A stretch of DNA of 38,067 bases from Desulfobacteraceae bacterium (GTDB lineage: Bacteria > Desulfobacterota > Desulfobacteria > Desulfobacterales > SURF-7): the NCBI GenBank assembly GCA_003599865.1, contig QZKS01000022.1, positions 1 through 38,067 on the forward strand, written 5' to 3'. Made by a program: the position numbers and the translations under genes. The notes beneath the pieces are model-generated. The model saw only the letters and a list, made by a program, of their open reading frames with translations. It did not search any database and had not been told where the DNA came from. The stretch's first letter is position 1, and each line of letters begins with the position of its first letter. Below, in pieces: positions 2,194 to 28,890 of this stretch.

Positions 2194-2241
2194 CGAGCGC
2201 TCGATTTTTTACTTGATCAAAACCGTTTTGCCCGGTAAGAT
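2194..2241 (+). promoter_or_regulatory. Promoter and operator-like palindromes upstream of etfBA
   Basis: A sigma70-type promoter is visible: TTGATC at 2213-2218, a 17-bp spacer and TAAGAT at 2236-2241, about 55 bp before the etfB start. A perfect palindrome CGAGCGCTCG lies at 2194-2203, just upstream of the -35 box. A second perfect dyad, CAAAAC-C-GTTTTG, fills 2218-2230 inside the spacer. Dyads at these places are typical of repressor operators; the TetR regulator at 23041 is one candidate binder, but nothing in the sequence proves this. Confidence 0.5.
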
Positions 2242-2296
2242 ATGGTCAAAAAGATTAACAACCAACCAATTTCCGGCAAGGAAGACAACCGACAAT

Positions 2297-3076: not shown

Positions 3077-3085
3077 GAAGTGCCT

Positions 3086-11434: not shown

Positions 11435-12208
11435 TCATTCAGATGAAAACGTTAATGATCGCACCAGAAATCGAGTGATGTGACTATTCCCTATTTTTGT
11501 TAAGAACATCAACAATTTCAAATGCAAGCTTACAATCCAGTGAACCCTGCGCCCGCATACCGCTTTCCAGACGATCTCTGCAACCTGATCCGGTGAAACT
11601 CTTACTCCCAGCTTGCCGACGCTGGAAGCTTTCTGTCTGGCATTCATGATCATGGGTGTAGTAACATAAGGTGCCATAATATCACACACCCAGATTCCCT
11701 GATCTTCAAATTCAATATTCAAAGCTTCCGTAAGACCCCGAACGGCAAATTTTGTGCTGGAATAAACAGCCAGTTCAGGCGTGCCATAAACCGCAGATCC
11801 GGAAGACATGTTGATGATTCTGCTATTTTCCGTATTCTTGAGAATAGTAAAACCCGCATCAATACAGTTCAAAATACCAATTAGATTGATATCCACCATT
11901 TTTTTCTGAATGTTCAGCGGTATCTTTTCATGGTGCCCCATCTGGAGAATGCCGGCACAGTTAAAAAGAGCATTCATTTTCCCGTCTGTCTTTTCGGAAA
12001 AAAAACGGATTGCATCTTTCACGCTTTGCGGATCAGCTACATCCATCTTTTTCATGCATGCTTTCTGTTCATCAAATTTTGAAAAAAAAGAAGTCAGATC
12101 CTTTTCATTAACGTCAAACAATCCGACATACCACCCTCTGCGGTAAAACAATTCAGCAGTGGCCTTCCCAATGCCGGACGCAGCACCGGTTATGGCGATA
12201 CTTTTCAT
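11435..12208 (-). CDS. Short-chain dehydrogenase/reductase
   Basis: This 257-residue classical SDR has the NAD(P)-binding motif TGAASGIG near residue 7, NCAG near 86, an active-site Ser in NMSSGSA, and the catalytic YSSTK at about 150. The final 35 residues are rich in hydrophobic and basic residues. It is the last gene of the seven-gene operon that begins with SCP2, 36 bp after the thiolase. SDRs in such operons usually oxidise hydroxyacyl-CoA or related alcohols, but the substrate cannot be read from the sequence. GGGAG precedes both the ATG at 12208 and a TTG one codon upstream, so the start could be either. Confidence 0.87.
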   Translation of the reverse strand: MKSIAITGAASGIGKATAELFYRRGWYVGLFDVNEKDLTSFFSKFDEQKACMKKMDVADPQSVKDAIRFFSEKTDGKMNALFNCAGILQMGHHEKIPLNIQKKMVDINLIGILNCIDAGFTILKNTENSRIINMSSGSAVYGTPELAVYSSTKFAVRGLTEALNIEFEDQGIWVCDIMAPYVTTPMIMNARQKASSVGKLGVRVSPDQVAEIVWKAVCGRRVHWIVSLHLKLLMFLTKIGNSHITRFLVRSLTFSSE

Positions 12209-12244
12209 CAACGTTCATTTCTCCCAAAGCAGATAAGATCCGGA

Positions 12245-13483
12245 TTATACTTTTTCAAGAATATGAATGCACATGGCAGCTTCTTCCACACCGATATTGC
12301 CCCCTCCGTTTTCAGCAAGTCCCAGTCTCGCCCCTTCCACCTGACGCTTTCCAGCCTCACCACGCAACTGAACACCGATCTCATAAATCTGAGCCAGACC
12401 GGAGGCTCCGATCGGATGGCCGCGGCACTCCAACCCACCACTTGTGTTTACAGGTTGTTTACCGCCAAGTCTTGTGGCTCCGGTCTCCGCATAGGGTCCA
12501 CCATCACCGATTGAACAAAAACCCATTGCTTCCGTTTGATGGAGCTCCCCATATGCGGTTGCGTCGTGGAGTTCTGCAAGACTGATATCAGATGGCCCGA
12601 CACCGGCGGTGCTGTAGGCCTCTTTTGCCAGACGCTCTCCAATATCTTCACCATCGAGCCCTCGATCTGAACCGGTACCCAGCACAGATGCCCTTATTTG
12701 AATAGGACGGGCACCGGACAGCTTTTTTAAAAATTTTTCGGAACAGACAATGGCTGCGGCTGCACCGTCACCGACGGGCGCACACATGGCCCGTGTCAAA
12801 GGATAGGCAATCGGCTTATCCGCTAAAACCTCTTCCATGGTCATATCCATTTGATACTGGGACATGGGATTTAATGAACCGTGCCAATGGTTTTTTGAAC
12901 AGATCAAAGCCAGCTGCTTCTGTGTAGAGCCGTAGGTACTCATGTGCCATCTTGCACCCATGGCATATGCATCCATAAATATACTTCGGCCCTCTCCCGG
13001 CCGGGTCTGATCCGCGGGAATTTCTACTGTAAATGTTTTATTCAGCTCTTCCATTGTCTTTAGCTGTTTTTCAAAATTACCGACATCCATGCAGGTAGCA
13101 TAGGCTGAAAGCGACAATGCCTTATTGGGATTGGTTATTTTTTCAGATCCCAGGGCAATGGCCACATCATACATTTGAGCCCGGATACCGGTATATGCGA
13201 GGTGAAGCGCTGTTGATGCTCCGGCACAGGCATTTTCAACATTTGTTACCGGAATCTTCTCAATTCCCATGGAACGGAGAGCAACCTCACCTCTTATGGA
13301 ATGCTGATTATCAAACATGCCCCAAAAGGTATTGGAAAAAAAAGCCGCCTGCAAATTCTCTTTTTCCAGTCCGGCATCTTCCAGCGCCAGGCGTGTAACT
13401 TCGTGAGCCATATCACGAACGCCACGGTCCGGATACTTGTTGAACCGAATCATCCCAAGTCCTATAATATAAACATGTTCCAT
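12245..13483 (-). CDS. Thiolase family protein (SCPx/acetyl-CoA acyltransferase type)
   Basis: This 412-residue thiolase keeps all catalytic elements: the nucleophilic Cys86 in ENACAGAS, the His306-Asp307 pair in ELHDATAYGEL, and Cys353/His356 in GGLECRGHPIGASGL. It belongs to the thiolase branch with an HD motif, as in SCPx, rather than the NEAFA type. Thiolases cleave 3-ketoacyl-CoA with CoA to give acetyl- or propionyl-CoA. AAGGAAAAG lies directly upstream of the ATG. It sits between an acyl-CoA dehydrogenase and an SDR, the expected order for a beta-oxidation operon. It has no DUF35 partner adjacent, unlike the thiolase at 28891-30099. Confidence 0.92.
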   Translation of the reverse strand: MEHVYIIGLGMIRFNKYPDRGVRDMAHEVTRLALEDAGLEKENLQAAFFSNTFWGMFDNQHSIRGEVALRSMGIEKIPVTNVENACAGASTALHLAYTGIRAQMYDVAIALGSEKITNPNKALSLSAYATCMDVGNFEKQLKTMEELNKTFTVEIPADQTRPGEGRSIFMDAYAMGARWHMSTYGSTQKQLALICSKNHWHGSLNPMSQYQMDMTMEEVLADKPIAYPLTRAMCAPVGDGAAAAIVCSEKFLKKLSGARPIQIRASVLGTGSDRGLDGEDIGERLAKEAYSTAGVGPSDISLAELHDATAYGELHQTEAMGFCSIGDGGPYAETGATRLGGKQPVNTSGGLECRGHPIGASGLAQIYEIGVQLRGEAGKRQVEGARLGLAENGGGNIGVEEAAMCIHILEKV

Positions 13484-13509: not shown

Positions 13510-14727
13510 TTATAGATGGTGGGCTCCTGTTATCATCAGGCTGTCATTCGCACCGTCTTCAATAAGCCCGGCACGAGCATCCCGGAAAAACTTTTCAATC
13601 GGATATTCACAACTCAATCCGTTTCCGCCAAAAATCTGAATGGCCTCGCTGGTGACTTCCAGTGAGACATTGGTACAAAAAACCTTTGATGCAATCGAGT
13701 ACTCAATCATAGGCGGCGTATTGTTATAATTATAGATCATGGCGGAACGAGATAAAGCCCTTGCCGCCTCAATCTTCATAAACATATTGAACAATTTATG
13801 TTTGATCAACTGATGCTCAAAAAGCGGTTTCCCTCCTTGAATACGTTTTTTCGAATAGGCCAGCGCTTCCTCATATGCGGCCCTTGCGACACCGACAAAC
13901 ATCGCCCCCATACCCGCATTGGCTGTAGAAAGTGTGATATCCAGCATGGAATCGTAGCTTTCCTCGTCTACAAGCATGTACTCCTTTGGTACCCTCACCT
14001 GATCAAAAAAAATTTCCCCCTGATTCAGGGCACGTTGCCCCATCTTGTTGAGCGGCTTGCCCCTGCGCACACCGGGACGATCAAGGGGGATAATACAGAT
14101 TCCACCACCGGACATGCCTTTGGAAGGATCAATGGTCAGATAGGCAAGGGTCTGGTTGGCGATGGTACCATTGGAAACCCATGCAGACTTCTGTCCTTCG
14201 ATAACCCATTCATCACCATCAAGTCGGGCTGTCACTTGTCCGGAAATATTTGAATCCGTAAATTGAGGCGTATATGGACAAAGCGTATCCGTTCCATGCT
14301 CCGGCTCCGTGATTCCCCAGCATCCGATAATGGAAGCATCCTTGCATTGACAAAATGGTTCGATAATTTCATCAATCAGACGTTCCGAAGGAACCATGGA
14401 TGCAAAAAAAGCAGGAAAGCAGGAAACCCCCAGACCGATAGCAAAGTCAACACTTCCCCAGGCAAGTTCTTCCAGCACGATGTGTGTTTCCAAGGGATCG
14501 GTTGCCAATCCTCCATAGGTATCCGGGATAAAAATCGTATGGTACCCCAGGTCATATCCTTTTTTCATTGTATTCCAGAACAAATCACTTTGTATTACTT
14601 CCTCCGGCGCCATTTTATCAAGCTCAATACCGGCAGGCCGTAAAACCTCCTTTGCAAAACGATGCGTTTCTTCCTTGATGGCATTTTGTTCATCCGTCAG
14701 TTCGATATTCAATTCTTTATAACCCAT
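13510..14727 (-). CDS. Acyl-CoA dehydrogenase with Asp at the usual catalytic Glu position
   Basis: The 405-residue protein has the acyl-CoA dehydrogenase fold with the FAD and substrate motifs GCWGITEPEHGTD (about 136-147), WVIEGQKSAWVSNG, and the C-terminal QIFGGNGLSCEYPIEKFFRDARAG. In most family members the C-terminal motif continues IYEGT, where Glu is the catalytic base; here it reads LIEDGAND, so by ungapped alignment the base position is Asp (about residue 391). The enzyme introduces a double bond into an acyl-CoA and passes electrons to EtfAB. AGGAG precedes the ATG; a GTG one codon upstream is also possible. It lies between the acyl-CoA synthetase and the thiolase. The ring or chain substrate is unknown. 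Confidence 0.9.
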   Translation of the reverse strand: MGYKELNIELTDEQNAIKEETHRFAKEVLRPAGIELDKMAPEEVIQSDLFWNTMKKGYDLGYHTIFIPDTYGGLATDPLETHIVLEELAWGSVDFAIGLGVSCFPAFFASMVPSERLIDEIIEPFCQCKDASIIGCWGITEPEHGTDTLCPYTPQFTDSNISGQVTARLDGDEWVIEGQKSAWVSNGTIANQTLAYLTIDPSKGMSGGGICIIPLDRPGVRRGKPLNKMGQRALNQGEIFFDQVRVPKEYMLVDEESYDSMLDITLSTANAGMGAMFVGVARAAYEEALAYSKKRIQGGKPLFEHQLIKHKLFNMFMKIEAARALSRSAMIYNYNNTPPMIEYSIASKVFCTNVSLEVTSEAIQIFGGNGLSCEYPIEKFFRDARAGLIEDGANDSLMITGAHHL

Positions 14728-14793
14728 CACGATCTGCTCCTTTCATCCAAAAAAGACATCGGATTATGACTGGTTTTATTCCATTAAACAATC

Positions 14794-16410
14794 TCACGAT
14801 CGGTAATCATCAAATTTATAGACATTCTCACCATCTGTTTTGAACTGCCCCCTCAGTACCCGGTCCAATGCTTTTTCCGATATGGTTTTCGGGATCTCAT
14901 CAACAATCTGAAGGTATGATGGAATAAAATTTGATTCTATGTCTGTTTTGCACTTCTCATAAATTATCTTTGGATCAATTGATCTACCTGGAACAGGAGC
15001 GATTGCAGCCACAAGATCACTCTCTCCGGGGGCACCGGAAGCGGATGGAATACCGTAAACACAAACTTCACTGACATCAGGATGTTCACCAATAACCTTC
15101 TCAATGTGGTCCGGTTGGATAAAATCTCCTGCTCGTCTGAGTTCACTTCCTTTTCGACATACAAAATAATACCAACCCTCTGCATCTTTTCTCACGAGAT
15201 CGCCGGTTCGCAACCAGCCGCCGCGGGTTTTCTTTTCTGAAGCATCTGGAAGATCATGATAATCCACCTTGGTTTCCCCGCGGGTCATTTTAATAATCAG
15301 CTCTCCGGTATCTCCATCGGGAACCTGCTCATCATTTTCATCAACAATCCTAAATTCCATCATTCCGGGTAGTGGTTTCCCAAAAGAGCCGATCGGCCCC
15401 CTGCCGGGCGGTTTGTAAGCAAATCCCCCTTCAACAGCTGCATACCACTCCAGAATCTTCACATCAAAACGCCTCTCAAAATCTTTCCAGATGGAAGCAG
15501 GGGTTCCTGCACTGATAACCGTCTGAACCGGATTATCCTTATCGTTCTCCTTTTCCTCCTGGTTATAAATCCCTGCCATCATACCACCCAATAAAGAAAA
15601 AGAAGTACAGCCATATTTCCTACAGATGTCCCATATCCCACTCTTGGTAAAACGAGCACTGAAAACTGCCTTTACTCCAGTACTCAGACTTGGAAATAAT
15701 GTCACCGCCTGAGCATTGCCATGGGTTAAAGACAAACCGGAATATAAAATATCATTTGGTTTATATTTCCAGACAAGCTTTGTGGCAATATTATACAGAC
15801 CAAAGCGGTTGTTCCGGATCATTACTCCTTTCGGGTCTCCTGTTGTTCCGGAGGTATAAATAATCTGCATGGGATGGCGAACATCCATGATTTGTTGCGA
15901 AACCGTATCCCAGGAATCTTTTTCCAGAATTTCATTCATGGATGGATAATCCGAAGAAACCGATACGTCATGCTCAGGACGATAGATCGCACTGACCAAC
16001 TTGATATTCGGTAACCGGCTAATCACCTGAGTAAGCTGAGGCAGCAATTCTCCGGAGACAAACACTGCCTTTGCGTTGGAATTGTCTAAAAGAAATCGCA
16101 ACCTGTCCCCGCGGCTCCGCGGGTCAATGGGCACCATTATCGCGCCTATCACCGGCCCTGCGAGCATCGAATAAACAAATTCGGGATGATTCCTCATAAA
16201 TACCGCATAGGTATCACCTTTTGTCACACCACTATCCAAAAGCAGGCGGGCAACCTTATTGGAATTTTCATACAAGTCCTTATACGTAAGGATATCATGG
16301 GCATAATCTCCATTTTCAAAAATAAGGATTTCCTGATCGGGCTTATCCTCGGCTTTCATTTCAATAAGATGAGAAGCTATGGCCTGATTCAAATGGGCTT
16401 TTGAACTCAT
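14794..16410 (-). CDS. AMP-dependent acyl-CoA synthetase
   Basis: The 538-residue protein has the ANL motifs in order: the P-loop IIYTSGTTGDPKGVMI (about 183-198), WYAAVEGGF in place of the usual YGxTE, TGDLVRKDAEGWYYF, and CRKGSELRRAGDFIQP as the hinge. The C-terminal Lys of PKTISEKALDR is the likely adenylation Lys. It would make acyl-CoA from a free acid and ATP, feeding the operon. The start at 16410 is preferred over an in-frame ATG at 16590, because GGGGGAG lies 7 nt before it and the upstream extension overlaps the DUF2148 gene. The Thr-to-Val change in the YGxTE motif is unusual. It resembles the CaiC-like group in general form; the substrate is not determined. Confidence 0.9.
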   Translation of the reverse strand: MSSKAHLNQAIASHLIEMKAEDKPDQEILIFENGDYAHDILTYKDLYENSNKVARLLLDSGVTKGDTYAVFMRNHPEFVYSMLAGPVIGAIMVPIDPRSRGDRLRFLLDNSNAKAVFVSGELLPQLTQVISRLPNIKLVSAIYRPEHDVSVSSDYPSMNEILEKDSWDTVSQQIMDVRHPMQIIYTSGTTGDPKGVMIRNNRFGLYNIATKLVWKYKPNDILYSGLSLTHGNAQAVTLFPSLSTGVKAVFSARFTKSGIWDICRKYGCTSFSLLGGMMAGIYNQEEKENDKDNPVQTVISAGTPASIWKDFERRFDVKILEWYAAVEGGFAYKPPGRGPIGSFGKPLPGMMEFRIVDENDEQVPDGDTGELIIKMTRGETKVDYHDLPDASEKKTRGGWLRTGDLVRKDAEGWYYFVCRKGSELRRAGDFIQPDHIEKVIGEHPDVSEVCVYGIPSASGAPGESDLVAAIAPVPGRSIDPKIIYEKCKTDIESNFIPSYLQIVDEIPKTISEKALDRVLRGQFKTDGENVYKFDDYRS

Positions 16411-16465: not shown

Positions 16466-17116
16466 CTAATCTTCAACAGCGCCAATGAACCCTCGGTTAT
16501 ACGTGGGGAACTCTTTGGCGAAAATCTCGTCCCAGTGTTCTTTAGTCCAGAATTCATGGCGATCAAAATATGGATTTTTCTTGGAAACACTTACGGAAAT
16601 ACTGATCACGATATCGACATCGGTTATTACACCAAGAGCCAGCGCACTGAAAGCAAGTGTGCTGAAAACCCTGCAATGCAAGCCCAAACGGTGTGCCATA
16701 GCGGCTGCTGAATTTGCCGCGATCCCTAAATTCAAATTTTTAAACATACAGCTTGGGCCATTAGCCGTTAGTGATTCCACTTCTTCTGCTTTGTTCAGCT
16801 CTGCACATGTTTTATAACCACAGGCACCACAATTATAATTAAAATCCGATTTTCGTTTATCACCGATAACCATCAGGGAGCAAGGTTCTTTGATCAGTTG
16901 TGCAAGGTGTCTTCCATCTCTTGCAGCGAGAGGGGACATATCTCCCAGGGAAAAGCAGTATTCCGCGATCTGTTCAAGGTCTTCTCCCTCAACGGTGATA
17001 ATTTTTACCGTATTTCTATCTTTAAACCGAAAGCTGTTATGGGCTGCAACCGCCATGAGTTCCACTGCACGATCCAATCCATTGCCTATAAGTTGAGACA
17101 TTTCTTTGATTGCCAT
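16466..17116 (-). CDS. DUF2148 (ferredoxin-domain) protein, copy A
   Basis: The 216-residue protein matches the DUF2148 family. It has a four-Cys set C96-G-A-C99-G-Y-K-T-C104 and C123 that resembles the CGxCGxxxC...C Fe-S motif of RnfB-like proteins, so a [4Fe-4S] cluster is plausible. No biochemical role is established for the family to my knowledge. The ATG at 17116 is chosen because GGAGGAG lies just upstream; an earlier in-frame start at 17143 is less likely. The gene is next to a second DUF2148 gene of different sequence (17240-17911), both between SCP2 and the acyl-CoA synthetase. A redox role linked to acyl-CoA dehydrogenation is inference from position. Confidence 0.82.
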   Translation of the reverse strand: MAIKEMSQLIGNGLDRAVELMAVAAHNSFRFKDRNTVKIITVEGEDLEQIAEYCFSLGDMSPLAARDGRHLAQLIKEPCSLMVIGDKRKSDFNYNCGACGYKTCAELNKAEEVESLTANGPSCMFKNLNLGIAANSAAAMAHRLGLHCRVFSTLAFSALALGVITDVDIVISISVSVSKKNPYFDRHEFWTKEHWDEIFAKEFPTYNRGFIGAVED

Positions 17117-17239
17117 TATCTCCTCCATATCCATAAAGGACATCCACCCTGATCTGTCCTTTGTTATGATTCATTCATGATATTCAATCGGTTGGTATCC
17201 AGTATCCGATTATCATCCATGGCAAATTCGCTTCACGGA

Positions 17240-17911
17240 TCAACTATAAATCGATCGGAACTGAGGCCATAACCGTTGAATCATTCTGTCATTCATGCTT
17301 CTCTGATTGATCTCAGCATATCGTTTGGGAATATCTCTGAACGGACTTTTCTCGGTAACGGAAATTCCTACTGCAAGCGCAAATCCTGTATTCCGTGGCA
17401 ATATTTTCAAACGCATCGCTGCTGCTCCTACAGACCAGAATACCCCATAATCAATCCCCAGATTTCTTGCCTGGGAAACCATGCCATCAACTGCATAAGC
17501 TATATTTGTCGCCCGAAAGGTACACAAGGGTCCCCTGAAGGCTACATCCGGATCATCCGGCAATTTATCTTCTTCTTTAAGATATTCGCAGACCAGCTTG
17601 CCGCAAAGATTACAATTGATGTCTGCAGGATCAGAGACACATCTCAGGGAAGTGGCAATGAGAACAGCATCAGCATCCCGAAGCATTGCTGCATCACGTG
17701 CAAAAAAATCCCAGCTTTTTTTGATGCCCGCCATCCTTTCCATCTCTTGGCAGACATCTTCTATTTCGCAATCATCATCCAGAATATGAATTGAACATTC
17801 CCCAACACCGCCGACCCTGGGCGAAGTTGTTCCGGATGCCAGAATTAACCTTGCTGCAGTCTTGACGGCAAGCAATCGATCGGTTTCAAATTGTTTAATA
17901 CTCCTCTCCAT
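17240..17911 (-). CDS. DUF2148 (ferredoxin-domain) protein, copy B
   Basis: The 223-residue protein is a divergent paralogue of the neighbouring DUF2148 protein. It keeps the same spacing of Cys residues: C100-x2-C103-x4-C108 and C130, compared with C96/C99/C104/C123 in copy A, so both could bind a cluster. The two share the ending pattern ISV(S/T)xKxPxFD/RD, and the middle segment GPLC(T)F in B parallels NGPSCMF in A. GGAGGG lies before the ATG. It follows SCP2 after 15 bp and is separated from copy A by 123 bp. Two unequal copies side by side suggest a heterodimer, which is inference only. Confidence 0.78.
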   Translation of the reverse strand: MERSIKQFETDRLLAVKTAARLILASGTTSPRVGGVGECSIHILDDDCEIEDVCQEMERMAGIKKSWDFFARDAAMLRDADAVLIATSLRCVSDPADINCNLCGKLVCEYLKEEDKLPDDPDVAFRGPLCTFRATNIAYAVDGMVSQARNLGIDYGVFWSVGAAAMRLKILPRNTGFALAVGISVTEKSPFRDIPKRYAEINQRSMNDRMIQRLWPQFRSIYS

Positions 17912-17926: not shown

Positions 17927-18343
17927 CTATTCATTTTTCTCAATTGAAAGTCCAAAACTTTTCGCATGTTCAGGATACATTTCATATGCAGGCTTCAACA
18001 AGGGTAGAAGTTTCAAAACCTTGGGCATCGGTCCTTTAGCCTTAATCAATCCTTTGGCCAAAGCTACCGGCATGGAAATGTGTTTCAGCCAGAATTTATG
18101 ACAGGTATCACCGCTCAATGTCATTTCAACGGTGGCTTTTGAATCTGTGTCACCCCAGATCACTTCTCCGATTTTACCATCTCCGGGTGTTATCCACAGC
18201 TGATCTTTTGGATCTGTGATATTAAACTTAATGACAATTCCGGTTGCTGCAAACTTGGGACCAAACTCAGGATGAGTAACAAGCGCTTCAAATAACCCTC
18301 CCAATACGGAATGCATGATCTCTCTGTTTTCAAACGCTGCCAT
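17927..18343 (-). CDS. SCP-2 sterol/lipid-transfer domain protein
   Basis: The 138-residue protein is a stand-alone SCP2 domain: the beta-sheet core IVIKFNITDPKDQLWI, the segment KATVEMTLSGDTCHKFWL, and the helix MPVALAKGLIKAKGPMPKVLKLLP. SCP2 domains bind acyl-CoAs and other lipids in a hydrophobic tunnel. In peroxisomes this domain is fused to MFE-2 and SCPx; here it is free. It is the first gene of the seven-gene operon, right behind a strong promoter, and AAAGGAGAG precedes the ATG. It may carry acyl-CoA substrates to the enzymes downstream. Confidence 0.87.
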   Translation of the reverse strand: MAAFENREIMHSVLGGLFEALVTHPEFGPKFAATGIVIKFNITDPKDQLWITPGDGKIGEVIWGDTDSKATVEMTLSGDTCHKFWLKHISMPVALAKGLIKAKGPMPKVLKLLPLLKPAYEMYPEHAKSFGLSIEKNE

Positions 18344-18438: not shown

Positions 18439-18465
18439 TATAGGTAAAATTTTTTATTGTGTCAA
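18437..18465 (-). promoter_or_regulatory. Sigma70 promoter of the SCP2-DUF2148-acyl-CoA operon
   Basis: On the minus strand a perfect -35 box TTGACA (18465-18460) is followed by a 17-bp spacer and TATAAA (18442-18437). It lies about 95 bp upstream of the SCP2 start. The -35 box includes the TGA stop of the upstream fapA-like gene (18464-18462), so the promoter is embedded in the end of that gene. Confidence 0.72.
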
Positions 18466-20639
18466 GCTTTTTTAAATGCCGACATGCCGGATGCTTTTAT
18501 AATTTCGATTTTCCATTTTTTTTCCGATTCACCATACTGCACCTCTTTAATCATAACATTTTTCTCTGTCTCATCCAGTGTCATAAGGGCATGTGGTCCA
18601 AAAAGTTTCGTACCGCCATAAATCTCTCCCCTGACAACAACAACCGGATTCCCGGGCTCTTTTTTCGACCATTCCGACACATCACTTTTCTCTTTGCCTA
18701 TTTTCTCGATTAATGTAATTTCCGTTTCTATTTTTGTCATGGATGCTGAGATTTCTTCCAGAATACGTTCCTGCTCTGAAAAAATTTCCCCGATCTTGTT
18801 TCCAATATCTTGCGATTTCTCTCTTACCTTCTCCATTACAAGCATTATTTTTTTTCTCTCATCCTCTGCCTTCTGAGCTTCTGCTGTTTTCATTTTCTGC
18901 GACAATGCATTTTCCAACATTTTCGCACGATCCTGGGCCTGCGCAAATTCGGAAATTTTTACATGTAACCGCCTCTGTTCTTCCAAAAGACTTTCATATT
19001 GCGCCTGTTCTTTTTCTAATTCTTCTCTTCTCTTTTGAATCTTATAATCCAATCCCTGAATAATTTTTCTGATATGCTCATCCTGGCCTACTTTTATCGT
19101 GCATGGAGGAGAAACGTCCGTTCCAATCTGCTTGGTATCAATACCCTCCTTTGCCGTTATTAAGGAGGAAATGATCTTTCCTCTTTCAATAATACATTTT
19201 CCACTTGTTCGTATTTTGGAATCAAGAATTTCCTTATCTACAACCACATCACCGTATGACTTAATGTTGGCATCCTTTACATATCTTGCGATAACCTGGC
19301 CTTCGGTTTGGATACCGGCACCAAAAATCCCACCATCCACCGTCAGATCACCTTTCAGATAAATCATTGCTCCATGTATCTCCTTTGCTGTAAGATTCCC
19401 CCCTCTGACACTGAATCCATCCTTTACCGCACCCTCCACATTGATATTGCCATCAAATTCTATATTTCCTGTATTATAGTCCACATCACCTTTCACATTA
19501 AACTCGTCAAAAACAGACAGCTTACCGGTAATCGTCACATTTGGCTGGCCTTCAACCTTTGCGAATACTTTTAAACCGTCGTTCGATAATTCAACTCCGG
19601 AATCGCATATCAGGTCCTTATCTTCCGGTTCAGAAACAGGGATTGATATGCCATAGACATTAAAACCATCTCTGCCTGGCTGCGAAGGTACTTTCTCTGC
19701 AATTAAATCCCCGGCATTTACACGCGGGATAGCCCCTCTATCCTTATAATCAATTGTGCCATCTTCATTGATCCGACCGGCACCGAGATAATCTGTGTCA
19801 AAAAAATATGTTATGCAGGCAGCCTTTCCTGGTACCGGCCTTTCACCCTTTGCAATAACCAGTTCATCATTGCCTTTCTTCACTGTATTCAAAAACGACT
19901 TTATTTTTGCCATATCAACAAGGTTATAATCAATCCCTCCATCTTCCAGCAGATCTTCGATCTCATCCATGGAAACCGGCTTTGAAAAATCACCCGAGAA
20001 GACAATCTTGGCCTCAAATTTGTCCTCGGAAATAATCAATACTGCCTTACTTCCCTCAGACTGATCATCCGGAGATTTCAATATATCACCATCGGCTGTC
20101 AATTTCTCAAAACGGCCTGCTGATGTAAGGGATTCTTGAATGACCATCTTTTGCGTTTCATTGCCACGGTCATCAGCGCCAACTCCGGAATCAAGGAATG
20201 GCTTCATCTCTTGGCCCGTCTCTTTTTTTTCCAGAATTTCCATTTCTTTCAAAATGACTTGGCGTTGCTCTTCCGTAATCATCCCTTGATCAACCATTAT
20301 TTCCCCAATAGAACTGCATGAGCGGTTCTTCATAAATTCTTTTGCCTGCAGACCCATCGCAGCGTCAATCTGACTTTTCGTTACAAATCCTTTCTTTAAC
20401 GCTCGTGATCCGAAACCTTTTGCAAAACTTCTTTTTGTCGCCGTCCGAAGATCCTCAATCAATGATTCCGGTATCATCTTATATTTTAAAAAAATTTCAT
20501 CTATTGGAACTTTATCGCCTGATTTTTCAAGCTTTTTCTGGATGGAATAGGCTTTTGCCAGTTGGGCTTTATCGATTAGTTTGTTGGAAAATGCGATCTT
20601 TGTTATGATATGATCATACCGTCTGATTTTTTCAATCAT
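18462..20639 (-). CDS. FapA/DUF342 family polymer-forming protein
   Basis: The 725-residue protein has the DUF342/FapA layout. From about 210 to 340 there is the family's N-terminal domain (YFFDTDYLGAGRINEDGTIDYKDRGAIPRVNAGDLIAEKVP). A right-handed beta-helix follows at about 370-510, with short Gly-rich repeats such as GNINVEGAVKDGFSVRGGNLTAKEI. A long charged coiled coil occupies about 540-660, and a C-terminal beta segment (GEIYGGTKLFGPHALMTLDE) closes it. The first 140 residues contain two similar helical modules (FSNKLIDKAQLAKA... and KGFVTKSQIDAAMG...) like those at the N termini of type II secretion ATPases. FapA affects flagellar assembly in some bacteria; no flagellar gene is nearby here. 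No signal peptide. Confidence 0.83.
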   Translation of the reverse strand: MIEKIRRYDHIITKIAFSNKLIDKAQLAKAYSIQKKLEKSGDKVPIDEIFLKYKMIPESLIEDLRTATKRSFAKGFGSRALKKGFVTKSQIDAAMGLQAKEFMKNRSCSSIGEIMVDQGMITEEQRQVILKEMEILEKKETGQEMKPFLDSGVGADDRGNETQKMVIQESLTSAGRFEKLTADGDILKSPDDQSEGSKAVLIISEDKFEAKIVFSGDFSKPVSMDEIEDLLEDGGIDYNLVDMAKIKSFLNTVKKGNDELVIAKGERPVPGKAACITYFFDTDYLGAGRINEDGTIDYKDRGAIPRVNAGDLIAEKVPSQPGRDGFNVYGISIPVSEPEDKDLICDSGVELSNDGLKVFAKVEGQPNVTITGKLSVFDEFNVKGDVDYNTGNIEFDGNINVEGAVKDGFSVRGGNLTAKEIHGAMIYLKGDLTVDGGIFGAGIQTEGQVIARYVKDANIKSYGDVVVDKEILDSKIRTSGKCIIERGKIISSLITAKEGIDTKQIGTDVSPPCTIKVGQDEHIRKIIQGLDYKIQKRREELEKEQAQYESLLEEQRRLHVKISEFAQAQDRAKMLENALSQKMKTAEAQKAEDERKKIMLVMEKVREKSQDIGNKIGEIFSEQERILEEISASMTKIETEITLIEKIGKEKSDVSEWSKKEPGNPVVVVRGEIYGGTKLFGPHALMTLDETEKNVMIKEVQYGESEKKWKIEIIKASGMSAFKKA

Positions 20640-23001: not shown

Positions 23002-23040
23002 CTCCATCAATTGATGCAAACAAATTTTGGGATAGAATTG

Positions 23041-23700
23041 ATGGGAAAAGGCATACTTATGGCGACGCCCCTTGAAAAAGCCCGACGCGATCCAAATTCA
23101 ATGAAGGCCAAAATACTGGCTTCCGCACGTAAAATCTTCAGCAAAAACGGATTTTCAGGTACGACAACACGCATGATCGCAAAAGCGGTTGGAATCGACA
23201 TTTCGACACTGTACTATCACTGGGGTGAAAAAGCAGACCTTTACAATGCTGTCCTGATGGACACTCAAGAGGAGCTGAGACAGGAATTGAAAAGGATTGA
23301 GAAAATTATCCATGGAAAACCCCTTCCCAATCGCCTTGAAATTGCCATCAATGAGTCCTGTGACTATCTTTTTCAGAACCCGGAAATCACCAATCTGATC
23401 CTTTTGAATTATTTTACCAAACCAAAAGGAAAAGATATCACCGAGTTCCATTTTATCGATATCATAACAGGAATAGCAATTTCAATGGGGCTTGCCATGG
23501 ATAAAGATAAAATCACAAAACAGGCAAAGGCCAGGGTAATGGCTGTCATGCTATCCCTGTTCAATTTTATTGCGGGCAAAAAATTTTTAAGCCCCATCAT
23601 CGGTGCGGAATGCCGGGATTATTTGGATGTTGTAAAGGAAACCTTGAATTTTATTCTGATACCCGCATTCATGCAGGAAAAAAAAATAAATGAATCATAA
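23041..23700 (+). CDS. TetR/AcrR family transcriptional regulator
   Basis: The 219-residue protein has an N-terminal TetR helix-turn-helix: ILASARKIFSKNGFSGTTTRMIAKAVGIDISTLYYHWGEKADLY, about residues 25-67 (shown in part by its motif GTTTRMIAKAVG). The C-terminal ligand domain is all-helical and not assignable. Family members near acyl-CoA genes often respond to acyl-CoA or fatty acids. It heads the plus-strand set of two acyl-CoA dehydrogenases and an SDR, so it probably controls them. Two starts are possible: ATG 23041 (GGGA upstream) and ATG 23059 (AAAAGG upstream); I chose the longer. A perfect-looking promoter lies immediately upstream. Confidence 0.85.
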   Translation: MGKGILMATPLEKARRDPNSMKAKILASARKIFSKNGFSGTTTRMIAKAVGIDISTLYYHWGEKADLYNAVLMDTQEELRQELKRIEKIIHGKPLPNRLEIAINESCDYLFQNPEITNLILLNYFTKPKGKDITEFHFIDIITGIAISMGLAMDKDKITKQAKARVMAVMLSLFNFIAGKKFLSPIIGAECRDYLDVVKETLNFILIPAFMQEKKINES

Positions 23701-23803
23701 GGTGTTCCCATAAAAAGTCAGCAAAATAATGCCCAGTTACACAGCAAAAAAACGCATAAAAAATCTTCCCCACAGGAAGACAACGGGTCAGGAGTAAGAC
23801 AAA

Positions 23804-24955
23804 ATGTTTGAATTTGATAAATCCCAACAACAGATTCAGAAAGCCGTGAAAGCATTTGCAAAAGGAGAGTTTGACAAGGAAGAAATCCAGGAGCTGGAGA
23901 AAAGGAAGGAATACCCGACAAAAACATGGAAAAAGGCAGCTGAATTAGGATTTATCGGCATCCATTTTCCGGAAGAGGTATCCGGTGCCGATCTTGGAAT
24001 CTTTGAAAATGTAATTGTCACAGAGGAAATGTGCCGGAAAGATTCAAGCTTGGGAATCACCATTTCCCAGGCCGGATATGCTTCTGAATGTATTCTCCGA
24101 TTTGGAAATGATCATCTGAAAAACAAATATCTTCCCCGAATCGTCGAAGGAGAAGCTCTTTCCGGCGGGGCATTCATGGAGCCGGACTGCGGTCAAGATC
24201 TCACCAAAATTTCGACAACAGCAACAAAGGATGGCGACAGCTGGGTGATCAATGGGAAAAAGACATTTGTATTAAACGGGGGTTCAGCGGAATTTTATAT
24301 TGTTCTCTGTCAGACCAGTCCGGACTCACCTGTTACAAAAGATGGTACCAGTCTGATTTTGGTTGAATCAGCAACAGAGGGGCTGGCAAGCAAGGATCTT
24401 GGAACCAGACTCGGAATCAATATGATGAACATGTCTGAACTGACATTTAAAAATGCGAGGGTCCCCGCAATCAACCTAATCGGTGAGGAAGGGAAAGGAT
24501 ATGATCATCTTCAAAAATTCTTTTCGGAAAGCAGAATTCTTCTTGCCGCGCAGGCTATCGGAACCGCTCAGGGTGCCTATGAGAGAGCTTTGGAGTATAT
24601 CAAGGGGAGAGAACAATTCAACCGGCCGATTGCAGCATTTCAGTCGGTCAGACACAAAATAGCAGACATGTGTGTCAAGATCGAATCGGCAAAATTGTTG
24701 ACATATGAAGCCGCCCAGAAATTCGATGCCGGGAAAATCGATCCCAAATTCTCTGCAATGACCAAAATTGCAGCCACCAATGCTGCTATGGAAGTAACCA
24801 ATGAAGCTGTTCAATTGCTGGGTGGATATGGCTATATGACGGAATATGAAATCGAGCACTTCTATCGCGATGCCAAGGTATTGCAGATCAGAGAGGGAAA
24901 TTTCACTATATTAAAGGATATAATAGCGAATACAACTATCGGAAAATTAAAATAG
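23804..24955 (+). CDS. Acyl-CoA dehydrogenase with canonical catalytic Glu
   Basis: The 383-residue enzyme has the usual acyl-CoA dehydrogenase pattern: AFMEPDCGQDL (about 123-133), WVINGKKTFVLNG (147-159), and the C-terminal LLGGYGYMTEYEIEHFYRDAKVLQIREGN, where Glu364 occupies the catalytic-base position of MCAD and short-chain enzymes. Basic REQFNRPIAAFQSVRHKIADM follows the family pattern. It passes electrons to EtfAB. GGAG lies about 10 nt upstream of the ATG. It begins 103 bp after tetR and ends 31 bp before the next acyl-CoA dehydrogenase, so the three likely form one transcript. The acyl specificity cannot be told. Confidence 0.93.
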   Translation: MFEFDKSQQQIQKAVKAFAKGEFDKEEIQELEKRKEYPTKTWKKAAELGFIGIHFPEEVSGADLGIFENVIVTEEMCRKDSSLGITISQAGYASECILRFGNDHLKNKYLPRIVEGEALSGGAFMEPDCGQDLTKISTTATKDGDSWVINGKKTFVLNGGSAEFYIVLCQTSPDSPVTKDGTSLILVESATEGLASKDLGTRLGINMMNMSELTFKNARVPAINLIGEEGKGYDHLQKFFSESRILLAAQAIGTAQGAYERALEYIKGREQFNRPIAAFQSVRHKIADMCVKIESAKLLTYEAAQKFDAGKIDPKFSAMTKIAATNAAMEVTNEAVQLLGGYGYMTEYEIEHFYRDAKVLQIREGNFTILKDIIANTTIGKLK

Positions 24956-24986
24956 CTTCGTGATAGGGATTAGGAGAAGGACAATC

Positions 24987-26132
24987 ATGGATATTTTACA
25001 CTATACAGGCGAACATAATGATTTCAGACAGCGTCTTCGACATTTTCTGCAAAAAGAAGTAACACCTTATGCAGACCAATGGGAAAAAAATCATATTGTT
25101 CCAAGAGAAATCTGGAATAAAATGGGAGAAAACGGCTTCCTATGTACAAGCGTTCCCAAAGAATATGGAGGGCTTGGTGGAGATTTTCTCTATTCGGCAA
25201 TCGTTTGTGAAGAGATAGCTGCAACCGGTCAGACCGGACTTGCTGCACCACTGCATAGCGATGTTGTTGTTCCCTATTTGCAAGAATATGGATCGGAAGA
25301 ACTGAAGAAAAAATATCTCCCCGGATGTGTATCCGGAAAAATCGTAACCGCTGTGGCCATGACGGAACCAGGTGCAGGAAGTGATCTTTCTTCCCTGCAG
25401 ACAATCGCTGTAGAAGATGGCGATGATGTTGTCATATCCGGCTCAAAAACATTTATATCAAACGGTATTCTCTGTGATATTGTTATCGTCGCCGCTAAAG
25501 ACCCGGCAGTGGCAGACCCCTATCAGGCACTTTCCCTCTATATTGTGGAGGCAGGAACACCCGGTTTTGAAAAAGGAAAACAGCTTGAAAAAATGGGTTG
25601 GCACAGCCAGGACACCGCTGAGCTGTTTTTTAACAATTGCCGGATTCCAAAAACCAACCTTCTTGGAGAGAAGGGTTTTGGCTTCCTGATGCTGATGGGA
25701 AAACTTCAGCAGGAAAGACTGGTCTGTTCCATGGGAGCCGTTTATGGAGCGGAAGTATGTATGAAACAGATTGTGGAATATTGCAAAACAAAAAAAGATG
25801 GGGCCGGGAAACCGTTATCCAAGTCTCAGGCGATTCAATTTGCATTGGTGGAAATGGCTGCCGATCTAAAAATCGGCAGAACGTTCGTAGACAAACTGAT
25901 CGCCGATCATATGGAAAAAAGGGATATTAAGACAGAAACCTCTATGGCAAAATTCTGGACAACGGAAATGTCAAACCGTGTTTTGGGAAAGGCGCTTGAA
26001 ATTATGGGGGAAGATGGGATGATAGAAAACAATTCAATCCCTCGTGGATGGCGGGATGCCAGGGTCACATCCATTTTTGCCGGAACAAATGAAATTATGA
26101 AATTTATTATTTCCAAACTGATGCAGCTGTAA
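24987..26132 (+). CDS. Acyl-CoA dehydrogenase, long-chain (LCAD/IVD) active-site type
   Basis: This 381-residue enzyme differs from its neighbour in the active site. The usual catalytic Glu position is Ala365 (SIFAGTNEIMK), but Glu243 in KLQQERLVCSMG matches the helix-G Glu that serves as base in long-chain and isovaleryl-CoA dehydrogenases. The segment WHSQDTAELFF and the ending AGTNEIM also match the long-chain group. FAD motifs AMTEPGAGSDLS (about 124-135) and ISGSKTFISNG are present. The ATG at 24987 has GGAGAAGG upstream; a GTG at 24960 is rejected. It probably acts on long or branched acyl-CoA, with EtfAB as acceptor. It is cotranscribed with the preceding dehydrogenase. Confidence 0.93.
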   Translation: MDILHYTGEHNDFRQRLRHFLQKEVTPYADQWEKNHIVPREIWNKMGENGFLCTSVPKEYGGLGGDFLYSAIVCEEIAATGQTGLAAPLHSDVVVPYLQEYGSEELKKKYLPGCVSGKIVTAVAMTEPGAGSDLSSLQTIAVEDGDDVVISGSKTFISNGILCDIVIVAAKDPAVADPYQALSLYIVEAGTPGFEKGKQLEKMGWHSQDTAELFFNNCRIPKTNLLGEKGFGFLMLMGKLQQERLVCSMGAVYGAEVCMKQIVEYCKTKKDGAGKPLSKSQAIQFALVEMAADLKIGRTFVDKLIADHMEKRDIKTETSMAKFWTTEMSNRVLGKALEIMGEDGMIENNSIPRGWRDARVTSIFAGTNEIMKFIISKLMQL

Positions 26133-26242
26133 AGTGTTGCCATACATTTGAGTACAACGACTATAAAGGGGAAGCGGTTGACACAGGATGAATAGCGAAA
26201 TCGCTTCAAATAACCACCCAATCAACCATGAGGAGAAAGATT

Positions 26243-27151
26243 ATGACAGAAATTCGATTTGATAACAGAGTCGCTATCGTAACCGGTGCCGGTGCCGGTC
26301 TTGGTCGAACTTACGCATTGGCCCTTGCCCAAAGAGGCGCAAAAGTGGTTGTCAATGATCTGGGCGGTACAAGGGACGGCTCAGGAAAAAGCACCAGTGC
26401 TGCCGACAATGTTGTTGATGAAATTAAAAAAGCAGGTGGAGTCGCCGTAGCCAACTATGATTCCGTAGCAACCGTCGAGGGAGGAGAAAATATTGTTAAA
26501 ACAGCGGTCGATAATTTTGGAAAAATCGACATCGTCATCAACAATGCGGGTATTTTGAGAGATAAAAGCCTTGTGAAAATGACGGAAGCGGAATGGGATC
26601 TGGTTCTGGCTGTTCATCTGAAAGGTGCCTACTGCGTAACACAGCCTGCATTTAAAATCATGAAAGATAATGGATATGGAAGAATCATCAACACTGCTTC
26701 CGGCGCAGGCTTATATGGTAATTTCGGACAAAGTAACTACTGCTCCGCAAAAATGGGTCTGGTCGGACTGATGAACAATATTGCCATTGAAGGGGCGAAA
26801 TACAACATCAAAATCAATACGATCGCCCCCATTGCCGCTTCTCGTCTTACTGAAGACATTATGCCTCCGGATCTGTTTAAAAAACTCAAACCCGAATTCA
26901 TCACACCGCTGGTATTGTATCTTGTCTCCGAGCAAAATCAGGACACCAAAATGATTTTTAACTGCGCCGCAGGCTGGTTCAGCAGAACGGAAGTCGTCTG
27001 CGCGCCCGGAATCTGTATCGGTAATGGGCAGAGAGAAATCACAGCAGAAGAAATTAAAGAAAACTGGAGCAAAATTACCAGTCTGGACAATGCAAAAAGC
27101 CTCGGAAGTGTCGGTGAATCCTTTGCCTTTTTAGGGCCGTTGATTTCCTGA
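26243..27151 (+). CDS. MFE-2-like (R)-3-hydroxyacyl-CoA dehydrogenase (SDR)
   Basis: The 302-residue protein closely follows the dehydrogenase domain of peroxisomal multifunctional enzyme 2: RVAIVTGAGAGLGRTYAL, VVVNDLGGTRDG, VANYDSV, NNAGILRDKSL, YGRIINTASGAGLYGNFGQ and the catalytic Tyr-Lys in SNYCSAKMGL, and it continues to the MFE-2 segments KINTIAPIAASRLTEDIMP and ENWSKI. It oxidises (R)-3-hydroxyacyl-CoA to 3-ketoacyl-CoA with NAD. AGGAG lies 8 nt before the ATG at 26243; an ATG at 26228 is also in frame. It follows the long-chain-type acyl-CoA dehydrogenase after 110 bp. Unlike MFE-2 it has no hydratase or SCP2 domain; those occur as separate genes at 4873 and 17927. Confidence 0.9.
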   Translation: MTEIRFDNRVAIVTGAGAGLGRTYALALAQRGAKVVVNDLGGTRDGSGKSTSAADNVVDEIKKAGGVAVANYDSVATVEGGENIVKTAVDNFGKIDIVINNAGILRDKSLVKMTEAEWDLVLAVHLKGAYCVTQPAFKIMKDNGYGRIINTASGAGLYGNFGQSNYCSAKMGLVGLMNNIAIEGAKYNIKINTIAPIAASRLTEDIMPPDLFKKLKPEFITPLVLYLVSEQNQDTKMIFNCAAGWFSRTEVVCAPGICIGNGQREITAEEIKENWSKITSLDNAKSLGSVGESFAFLGPLIS

Positions 27152-27220
27152 TGCCGGAAATGAGGAAGCTGAAAAGCAATCTTATTATGTTGTAACTCAT
27201 TCTAATTTTAGAATACGGTT

Positions 27221-27334
27221 TAACAAGTGCCGGCCAAGCCCAGCAATGTGTTTATAACTTTTCAAACGGTTTGCTTGAATCTCCTCCAAGCCCAACAAGA
27301 AAAGGAAACAAACTGTACCGGCCGGCACTTGTTA
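27221..27334. repeat. 114-bp element with 15-bp perfect inverted repeats; MITE-like or regulatory hairpin
   Basis: TAACAAGTGCCGGCC at 27221-27235 is repeated inverted at 27320-27334. The element is flanked by TA at both ends of the repeats, as in Tc1/mariner-type insertions. The interior has a near direct repeat (CCAAGCCCAGCAA and CCAAGCCCAACAA) and a dyad TTCAA-N9-TTGAA. No coding sequence is present. It separates the SDR gene from the HMG-CoA-synthase-like gene. Confidence 0.55.
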
Positions 27335-27425
27335 TTTTACAGCAGTTATCTCTAAAAAATGAAACTGTTTTGAGATCACTTCTGTAATCGGAATTGAATA
27401 CACTTAAAAACCACGGAGGTCAATC

Positions 27426-28889
27426 ATGGTTGGTATCACATCTTATGGCGGTTATATCCCCAGATTACGATTAAACCGCGGCGCAATATACGGCGCAAAC
27501 GCCTGGATGGCACCGGGACTGATCGGGTCTGCAGGCGGTGAAAAATCAATGGCGAACTGGGATGAAGACAGTCTGACAATGGCGGTTGAGGCTGCCCGGG
27601 ACTGTATTGCAGGATTCGACAAGACACAGATAGATGCAACATATCTGGCATCCCTCAACCTTCCCTTCCAGGACAGGCAAAACAGCGGAATTCTTGCTGC
27701 TGCATTAAATTTAAAAGAAGATCTGGAAACAGCGGACTTTACAGGATCTACGCGATCCGGCCTGTCTGCGGTGATTGCAGCAATCAACGCGGTCAAAACA
27801 GGAGACTACCGGAATGCACTGGTCGCCGCCGGTGACCGGCGTATCACCAAAATGGCCTACTCACATGAACTATGGGCAGGCGACGGCGCAGCATCTCTTA
27901 TGATTGGAAAAAAAGATGTAATTGCCGAATTTAAAGGCGCTTATACTGTCTCTGACGATTTTATCGATCACTTCAGAGGACAGGGAGAAAAATTTGATTA
28001 CAACTGGGAAGAACGGTGGATCAAGGATGAAGGCATAACCAAGCTGGTCCCGAAAGCAATTCAGGGGCTGCTCAAAAAAACCGGCATAAACGGCAAGGAA
28101 ATCTCCCGCTTCATCATGCCCTGTGTCTTTGGCCGCGTTCCCGCCGAAATCGCAGCCGGTTTCGGCATCACCTCCGACAAAGTAGCTGATAATATGCACA
28201 AGGTTTGCGGTGATACCGGTACTGCTCATCCAATCGTCATGCTGGCCCTGGCTCTTGAAACAGCGTCACCCGGTGACAAACTGCTCATCGCAAATTTCGG
28301 CCAGGGAGCGGTTGCCATGTTGTTTGAGGTAACGGACAAGATTAAAAATCTACGCCCCAGAATCGGAATCTCCGGTTGCCTGGCAGATAAAAAGCCGGAG
28401 CTCAATTATATTAAATTTCTGTCCCATCGAGGCATGCTTCAGCAGGATTGGATGATGAGAGCGGAAGGAAATTATAAAACCGCCCTCACGACCCTGTATC
28501 GAAGCCGTAAGATGATTCTCGGAATGGTCGGCGGGAAGTGCACAAAATGCGGCACAGCCCAATTCCCGAAATCGGAAATGTGCGTGAACCCTGAATGTGG
28601 AGAGATCGGAACCCAGGAGGACTGTGAATTTTCAGACCAGCCGGGAAAAATAAAAACCTATACCTCCGACCTGTTAACCTATACGCTGGACCCTCCGGCG
28701 CACTACGGCATGATCACCTTTGAAAACGAGGGCCGTGGCATGTTCGATTTCACAGACTACGAGGCCGGCAAGATCAAGGTCGGACTACCGGTCAAAATGG
28801 TATTCCGAATTCGGAATTTTGATAAGCCAAGAGGTTTTATACAGTATTACTGGAAAGCAAGACCGGTAATTTCAAAAGAGGAGGCATAA
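27426..28889 (+). CDS. HMG-CoA-synthase-like protein fused to a zinc-ribbon/OB-fold DUF35 domain
   Basis: The 487-residue protein has an N-terminal condensing-enzyme fold like archaeal HMG-CoA synthase (about residues 1-310) and a C-terminal DUF35 unit (about 360-480) with a zinc ribbon, Cys372, Cys375, Cys386 and Cys391, then an OB-fold. DUF35 proteins accompany thiolases in archaeal mevalonate synthesis, in BbsA/BbsB of toluene degradation and in steroid side-chain cleavage. Ungapped alignment of ADFTGSTRSG (103-112) with the family's active-site loop puts Thr109 where the nucleophilic Cys belongs. Acetyl transfer on Cys is therefore unlikely, and the protein may support the thiolase beside it. 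It ends 1 bp before that thiolase. Confidence 0.82.
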   Translation: MVGITSYGGYIPRLRLNRGAIYGANAWMAPGLIGSAGGEKSMANWDEDSLTMAVEAARDCIAGFDKTQIDATYLASLNLPFQDRQNSGILAAALNLKEDLETADFTGSTRSGLSAVIAAINAVKTGDYRNALVAAGDRRITKMAYSHELWAGDGAASLMIGKKDVIAEFKGAYTVSDDFIDHFRGQGEKFDYNWEERWIKDEGITKLVPKAIQGLLKKTGINGKEISRFIMPCVFGRVPAEIAAGFGITSDKVADNMHKVCGDTGTAHPIVMLALALETASPGDKLLIANFGQGAVAMLFEVTDKIKNLRPRIGISGCLADKKPELNYIKFLSHRGMLQQDWMMRAEGNYKTALTTLYRSRKMILGMVGGKCTKCGTAQFPKSEMCVNPECGEIGTQEDCEFSDQPGKIKTYTSDLLTYTLDPPAHYGMITFENEGRGMFDFTDYEAGKIKVGLPVKMVFRIRNFDKPRGFIQYYWKARPVISKEEA

Positions 28890-28890
28890 C

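Follow-up and report, generated by a model that had tools for sequence, protein, structure and literature searches.

Nitroreductases are dimers that carry FMN at the subunit interface, with RRSxR and PSxxNxQPW as FMN-binding motifs. Among the enzymes of this fold is CLA-ER, a reductase of conjugated fatty acids. A nitroreductase-type fold is also present in both MMACHC and MMADHC, which act in animal cobalamin trafficking and are not known to contain an Fe-S cluster. Redox proteins found beside acyl-CoA dehydrogenases are represented by EtfAB together with the ETF-linked Fe-S oxidoreductase. MMACHC and MMADHC form a complex of two unequal related proteins in cobalamin trafficking (PMC4705923).

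In this study, we analyzed a stretch of 38,067 nucleotides from a Desulfobacteraceae bacterium (contig QZKS01000022.1), hereafter called the window, in which two adjacent DUF2148 genes, A and B, are part of an acyl-CoA operon. A and B share with FMN nitroreductases (PF00881; PDB 3e39, 3gfa, 5ko7 (iodotyrosine deiodinase), and 4qlx (CLA-ER)) a predicted fold over approximately 130-150 residues, but differ from them by an added four-cysteine segment, by being two unequal gene products, and by FMN motifs that are mostly gone. By description, A and B would parallel MMACHC-MMADHC as two related but unequal proteins with a nitroreductase-type fold. With EtfAB they share the position of presumed redox proteins beside acyl-CoA dehydrogenases, but A and B have no ETF domain. 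In open-licence PMC literature, DUF2148, COG4739, and PF09918 were not found as terms, and a clan placement in Pfam or InterPro may exist; also, among the papers listed there, no title or beginning of an abstract dealt with the A/B pair. Of the terms nitroreductase, SCP2, and sterol carrier, none occurs in PMC12583861 or in PMC13416013, and the latter does not contain DUF either. Judged from the models, the constant unequal pair with its added Fe-S architecture would be new, while nitroreductase-fold redox proteins as such are of a known kind.

The tandem gene pair and its operon

In the window, the genes of the operon are located on the reverse strand in the order SCP2, A, B, synthetase, dehydrogenase, SCPx-type thiolase, and SDR. 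The conserved block starts with the gene of an SCP2-like lipid-binding protein (17927-18343; PF02036, 24.5 bits), followed by A (DUF2148 type A; 17240-17911, 223 aa; PF09918, 69.7 bits, E 2.1e-19) and B (DUF2148 type B; open frame 16466-17143; PF09918, 83.9 bits, E 7.8e-24), both well over the curated PF09918 cut-off of 25 bits. For B, a start at 17116 (216 aa) is likelier, since GGAGG precedes it and all 59 rows of the B alignment have Met10. Downstream of the pair follow an acyl-CoA synthetase (AMP-binding; 14794-16410, 538 aa from the ATG at 16410; PF00501, E 2.8e-62), an acyl-CoA dehydrogenase (13510-14730; PF00441, E 3e-30), a thiolase of the SCPx/lipid-transfer type (12245-13483; PF22691, E 1.2e-34), whose top NCBIfam match is the 'lipid-transfer protein' subfamily at a score under its cut-off, and, at the block end, an SDR-family dehydrogenase (11435-12211; PF00106, E 8.2e-41). 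Thus, the PF09918 scores and the Pfam matches of the neighbors agree with the initial annotation, which had placed two DUF2148 genes between SCP2 and an acyl-CoA synthetase; its term acyl-CoA operon was right, and beta-oxidation fits.

At E <= 0.001, A and B matched neither PF00881 nor the ETF domains PF01012/PF00766 nor any NCBIfam family, and no DNA-binding or signaling domain was found in them with Pfam and NCBIfam. B matched the FeS domain PF04060 with 20.4 bits, under its cut-off of 23, and A had no match to it. According to the family search, A and B are the only DUF2148 proteins in the window's genome (97% complete).

Further genes of the window were recorded. SCP2 is directly preceded by the gene of a FapA protein (flagellar assembly protein A type; 18462-20639, reverse strand), an arrangement also seen in 3 of the 63 loci described below (L096, L098, L156). 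An EtfB/EtfA-like gene pair (2213-4072, forward strand) is located about 7 kb past the SDR end of the operon on the opposite strand. Also on the forward strand, a second, divergent acyl-CoA cluster (23011-30099) comprises a TetR gene (23011-23700), two acyl-CoA dehydrogenases (23804-24955 and 24960-26132), an SDR-like gene (26228-27151), a gene (27426-28889) whose product has weak ACP_syn_III/thiolase matches as well as OB and ChsH2-type zinc ribbon domains, and one more thiolase (28891-30099); as a whole, this cluster resembles those for the degradation of steroid or aromatic side chains.

As read off the result tables, PF09918 occurs in 17 of 59 genomes around the window's (own included), 13 with a tandem pair and 4 with a single copy, and in 61 of 297 genomes of the phylum, 17 with pairs (24 pairs, six of them in genome G134) and 44 with singles only. 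All 35 distinct pairs of the family search (window included) are arranged in tandem on the same strand, and A comes first in all 32 pairs placed in the tree. By score and position, neither genome set contains a lone A- or B-like copy above the family cut-off; one fragment below this cut-off is present in G059. Searching species genomes with the B alignment, we obtained 63 named loci, some of which duplicate places already in the genome sets and which describe only the short class of pairs (see below), since they were picked by similarity to B. In all 63 loci, A immediately precedes B in the same orientation, and SCP2 is directly upstream of A. Among the loci with room for the respective neighbor, the synthetase is located downstream of B in 61/61, the acyl-CoA dehydrogenase is present in 55/55, the thiolase in 49/50 (48 within 4.5 kb, more distant in L132, none seen in L110), an SDR-type gene at the block-end position in 36/44, and an epimerase/3beta-HSD-like gene in 25/44. 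In 37 of 56 loci with sufficient flank, SCP2 is preceded by a TetR gene, which could encode the regulator of the operon. An EtfB homologue was detected in only one of the 63 loci (flanks up to 8 kb). The neighbor counts were obtained by tblastn; the greedy gene caller had retained antisense ORFs in GC-rich loci. In one MAG, B is interrupted and reads as two separate open frames (L112:4015-4665, forward strand), due to either a sequencing error or a broken gene. According to record titles, MAGs with the operon belong to deltaproteobacteria, Spirochaetes, Chloroflexi/Dehalococcoidia, Bacillota/Clostridia, and Acidobacteria, and Desulfosarcina widdelii PP31 carries it in its complete genome; one scan of viral contigs revealed no relative. 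Chance is excluded as a reason for the A/B pairing, and the conserved pair that had been postulated for this operon indeed recurs in the neighborhood survey.

A tree of 98 proteins (LG+C20 PMSF), including 34 singles and omitting L090, L092, and L093 (6 rows) as well as lower-ranked singles, covered a short class of pairs (A proteins of ~223 aa) and a divergent long class (~255-315 aa). A-short and A-long form a branch with support 100/99, B-short and B-long one with 98/95; the join of the B proteins is possibly long-branch attraction, since two long B branches meet there (program warning), whereas that of the A proteins was not flagged. All 34 singles fall outside the A and B branches. These sequences are most simply explained by a single duplication, after which A and B were inherited together, as would be expected of two subunits. 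The single-copy DUF2148 proteins resemble A and B in belonging to the same family (profile probability 99.8-99.9%) and, in most cases, in their inserted cysteines, but differ in mostly being 165-200 aa long, with a shorter C-terminus, non-tandem genes, and higher family scores. Their flanks are diverse.

Long-class pairs, too, are surrounded by acyl-CoA genes: of 17 such loci, several of which are on short contigs, 9 carry dehydrogenase homologues, 6 thiolase homologues, and 2 ETF homologues (L084, L069). L092/L208 shows the order SCP2-synthetase-A-B-dehydrogenase-thiolase-SDR-SDR; L084 carries genes for a dehydrogenase, an EtfA-like protein, an Fe-S protein with CCG domains, an EtfB-like protein, A, B, and a dehydrogenase; and in L067 an aldehyde:ferredoxin oxidoreductase gene comes after the pair. 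Six long-class pairs (L064-L069) were observed in the single 8.9-Mb assembly G134, for which 8% contamination is listed; L066 and L068 are near-copies, so at least five pairs are distinct, and their surroundings differ. An ORF of a group II intron-type reverse transcriptase/maturase adjoins the long-class pair of L074 (9264-9965, reverse strand).

Cysteine sets and predicted fold

The cysteines of A are C100-x2-C103-x4-C108...C130 (numbered from the first ATG), and those of B are C96-x2-C99-x4-C104...C123 from start 17116, corresponding to C105/C108/C113/C132 from the first ATG. The initial annotation had correctly noted Cx2Cx4C...C in both proteins, with the B set counted from 17116. All four cysteines are invariant in the short class, in 63/63 A rows and 59/59 B rows (window included). 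The A alignment consisted of the window's A and 62 of the 63 A proteins (without the overlong L145), the B alignment of the window's B and 58 of the 63 B proteins (without L103, L112, L119, L122, and L135 due to overlong or broken frames). In the other groups the spacing varies: Cx2Cx3C occurs in 7 of 32 singles, and two more singles miss the fourth-cysteine pattern; Cx2Cx5C is found in 14/14 A-long proteins, and the third cysteine is absent in one of 14 B-long proteins (L073). From its sequence pattern, Cx2Cx4C with the distal cysteine is a predicted [4Fe-4S] site in both A and B.

AlphaFold2 models were built from alignments of 59 sequences for B (pLDDT 84.4, pTM 0.78) and 63 sequences for A (pLDDT 82.0, pTM 0.80). 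For both models, all of the 50 Foldseek matches listed have a nitroreductase fold, with best E-values of 4.2e-5 (B) and 2.3e-5 (A), modest TM-scores of 0.33-0.61, and large rmsd. With VIA-align, all of the 50 matches listed for each model were nitroreductase-like, including 3e39_B for B (Z 12.4, rmsd 2.7, 130 aligned) and 5ko7_A (Z 13.0, rmsd 2.8, 138 aligned) and 3e39_B (Z 12.9, rmsd 2.6, 131 aligned) for A; as a yardstick, models without a clear match reach a best Z of 7 to 8. CLA-ER (4qlx) was among the matches listed for both models. A nitroreductase fold is therefore predicted for A and B. The four-cysteine segment would sit between a core strand and the ensuing long helix, approximately where nitroreductases have a variable excursion.

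As independent, though weaker, evidence from sequence, profile comparison with hhalign of the pooled DUF2148 family and a larger set of nitroreductases resulted in a probability of 92.5% (E 4.9e-7), while 14 control comparisons reached at most 2.3%. Group by group, probabilities against this set were 57-86%; a smaller nitroreductase set had given only 10-45%, with controls up to 3.8%. The larger set consisted of nitroreductases from related genomes (25 of 30 loci gave a protein, 3 were removed) and 11 ferredoxin-nitroreductases; on the DUF2148 side, 32 of the 34 singles were used (without L039 and L052), and the pooled family contained every third short-class row. The confident stretch covers 39 columns ('AAxTAPK...' versus 'EAxxAPSA...'). 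A permissive setting was needed for the full-length alignment, which is collinear ('DLGIAxGSA' versus 'DxGIxxQN') and in which the cysteine segment falls in a gap of the nitroreductases. Neither phmmer with A and B against PDB sequences nor profile searches of PDB sequences with A and B up to E 10 retrieved a nitroreductase. The fold assignment therefore rests on the models and hhalign, and, since there was also no PF00881 match, the kinship to nitroreductases is remote.

The FMN-binding motifs RRSxR and PSxxNxQPW appear in the nitroreductase consensus used here. A-short proteins have kept an ERSxKQF-like N-terminus, which resembles RRSxRxF, and the PRVGG loop, whereas B-short proteins have lost both. 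No RRSxR-like motif is present in B-short, B-long, A-long, or the singles, and PSxxNxQPW is found in no DUF2148 group. The RD(A/G) helix start and the C-terminal K-x-x-F/Y-type motif are kept in singles, A-short, and B-short; A-long keeps KNPxxD, and B-long has none of the RD(A/G), K-x-x-F/Y-type, and KNPxxD motifs. With most of the FMN motifs of nitroreductases gone, one subunit or both may lack FMN. The motifs suggest an asymmetric dimer in which A is the likelier holder of the flavin.

Exchange with ferredoxin-nitroreductase proteins

Searches with the dehydrogenase, synthetase, and SCP2 detected the same operon without the pair in the phylum, and its extra gene encodes a ferredoxin-nitroreductase protein. 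All five replacing proteins scanned contain Fer4 and PF00881 (E 1e-30 to 1e-34), and RRSxR and APS(A/S)GN are present in 11 of 11 ferredoxin-nitroreductases inspected. In L194, the replacing protein is also fused to a Pyr_redox_2/Fer4_20 module, which by its domain content would provide a link to NAD(P)H. This protein of 819 aa (L194:10316-12775, forward strand) unites Fer4, Fer4_20 and Pyr_redox_2 (GltD/NfnL-like), and nitroreductase in one chain, and split matches in L197, L217, L218, L241, and L243 resemble this form. The ferredoxin-nitroreductases of the sister operons (e.g., L199:9500-10582 and L201:3337-4347) are like A and B in operon type and in combining Fe-S with a nitroreductase fold, the latter being predicted for A and B; unlike them, they are single chains in which the nitroreductase motifs are intact and a ferredoxin region lies at the N-terminus, whereas A and B are two chains with one four-cysteine set each.

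To avoid a hand-picked sample, 395 genomes were searched for the thiolase, with up to four candidates per genome scored. This gave 34 matches at E <= 1e-165, none below 68% identity, which are spread over 30 genomes including the window's. With labels assigned at >=60 bits and several loci bounded by contig ends, 14 of these orthologous-thiolase loci have the pair only (both classes), 16 the ferredoxin-nitroreductase only, one has both (L231), and three have neither (L232, L233, L234). This either/or distribution has a Fisher exact p of 1.3e-5, with shared ancestry ignored. In L231, the co-occurrence is on the opposite strand, beyond ETF homologues; in L235, counted as ferredoxin-nitroreductase only, just the end of the gene is present at the contig edge. 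The position of the replacing gene varies (between synthetase and thiolase, behind the latter, or at the block end), and in 10 of the 16 ferredoxin-nitroreductase-only loci it does not adjoin a dehydrogenase. Genome G094 contains both versions as separate operons, the pair on C88 and the fusion on C69.

Around synthetase homologues, 39 loci (from 40 matches) comprised 10 with the pair, 14 with a ferredoxin-nitroreductase homologue, none with both, and 15 with neither; L196, L200, L204, and L225 are cut by contig ends, and L209 has a weak partial match. Because of the 15 loci with neither, the either/or rule applies to the orthologous-thiolase operons and not to every synthetase homologue. Among the window and the 97 loci L061-L157, a full ferredoxin-nitroreductase accompanies the pair only in L132, in an apparent second operon behind the first, and weak partial matches occur in L070, L083, L089, and L099.

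Function of the pair

On balance, we lean towards A and B being a two-subunit [4Fe-4S] oxidoreductase of nitroreductase fold that does the job of the ferredoxin-nitroreductase; cluster, FMN, heterodimer, direction of the electrons, and substrate are all deduced. Since nitroreductases are dimeric with FMN at the interface, A and B would form an obligate heterodimer with one cluster in each subunit and one or more flavin sites. Low-potential electrons, linked to ferredoxin or NAD(P)H, would reach the flavin by way of the clusters or take the opposite route, and the enzyme would act on a lipid or acyl substrate handled by SCP2, synthetase, dehydrogenase, and SCPx-type thiolase, for example by reducing a C=C bond or by removing a group that blocks beta-oxidation. 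As short pair, long pair, and ferredoxin-nitroreductase are all predicted to combine Fe-S with a nitroreductase fold, one function is the economical reading, according to which the pathway has a single Fe-S-wired redox step of nitroreductase fold. Mammalian SCPx acts in branched-chain or sterol side-chain oxidation, and the separate SCP2 and SCPx-type thiolase of the operon recall this protein, an analogy which at most hints at the substrate. A more specific version can be offered only tentatively: the pair may be a new type of heterodimeric flavo-Fe-S enzyme with a [4Fe-4S] cluster per subunit and a shared asymmetric flavin site, exchanging low-potential electrons with a lipid or isoprenoid/steroid-like acyl intermediate in anaerobic degradation, and the at least two pair classes and the six pairs in one genome (five clearly distinct) might then be substrate-specific versions.

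Alternatively, A and B could serve the acyl-CoA dehydrogenase as its own electron carrier, taking electrons from its FAD to ferredoxin or the membrane. The dehydrogenase in 55/55 short-class loci with room and the dehydrogenase homologues in 9 of 17 long-class loci (a set with some truncated loci) agree with this, and a cofactor set of two clusters and a flavin would be appropriate for electron transfer. However, EtfA/EtfB homologues near pairs in L084, L069, L230, and L231 argue against such a carrier and favor a reaction on the substrate, as do four operons with the ferredoxin-nitroreductase instead of the pair (L217, L218, L242, L243), in which two distant dehydrogenases (24-28% identity) stand in for the usual one and the slot is still filled. 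The location of the replacing gene away from the dehydrogenase in 10/16 loci speaks against the carrier as well, and the six pairs of G134 (at least five distinct, 8% contamination) with their varied surroundings fit enzymes specific for different substrates better than a shared carrier. The existence of conjugated fatty acid reductases among nitroreductase-fold enzymes (CLA-ER, 4qlx) also favors a substrate reaction. We therefore consider the carrier unlikely, and a role of A and B as electron partner of the dehydrogenase at 13510, as suggested initially, is unproven; action on an acyl intermediate is more likely than a replacement of ETF. Near the long-class pairs of L084, L069, L230, and L231, the ETF homologues mean that the pair is not simply an ETF replacement, and a general ETF substitute was ruled out as a candidate on these grounds.

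Less probable still is a function without redox catalysis, in which the pair binds a cofactor or lipid or aids assembly in the manner of MMACHC/MMADHC. The degraded FMN motifs would be in line with it, and the two-protein MMACHC-MMADHC complex is a known case from cobalamin trafficking (PMC4705923); the invariant cluster cysteines in 63 and 59 short-class rows, however, and the exchange of the slot with a protein having intact Fer4 and nitroreductase domains stand against it. A lipid-binding redox sensor regulating the operon is very improbable: Fe-S proteins can be sensors and the pair is positioned beside SCP2, but A and B have no DNA-binding or signaling domain detectable with Pfam and NCBIfam, a TetR gene is already located upstream in 37/56 loci with room, and the slot is exchanged with the ferredoxin-nitroreductase. 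Of the two roles considered in the initial annotation, the redox one is thus strengthened by predicted fold, cluster cysteines, and this exchange, while the sensor, for which no such domain was found, is not.

With the two-subunit oxidoreductase as preferred reading, the unnamed domain family DUF2148 gains a predicted fold, a cofactor hypothesis, and a pathway. The pair marks a widespread operon of anaerobic lipid degradation, the redox step of which seems to have two unlike, fold-related solutions. As these two solutions occupy one slot, the function becomes testable: ferredoxin-nitroreductase and A/B should share the same reaction.
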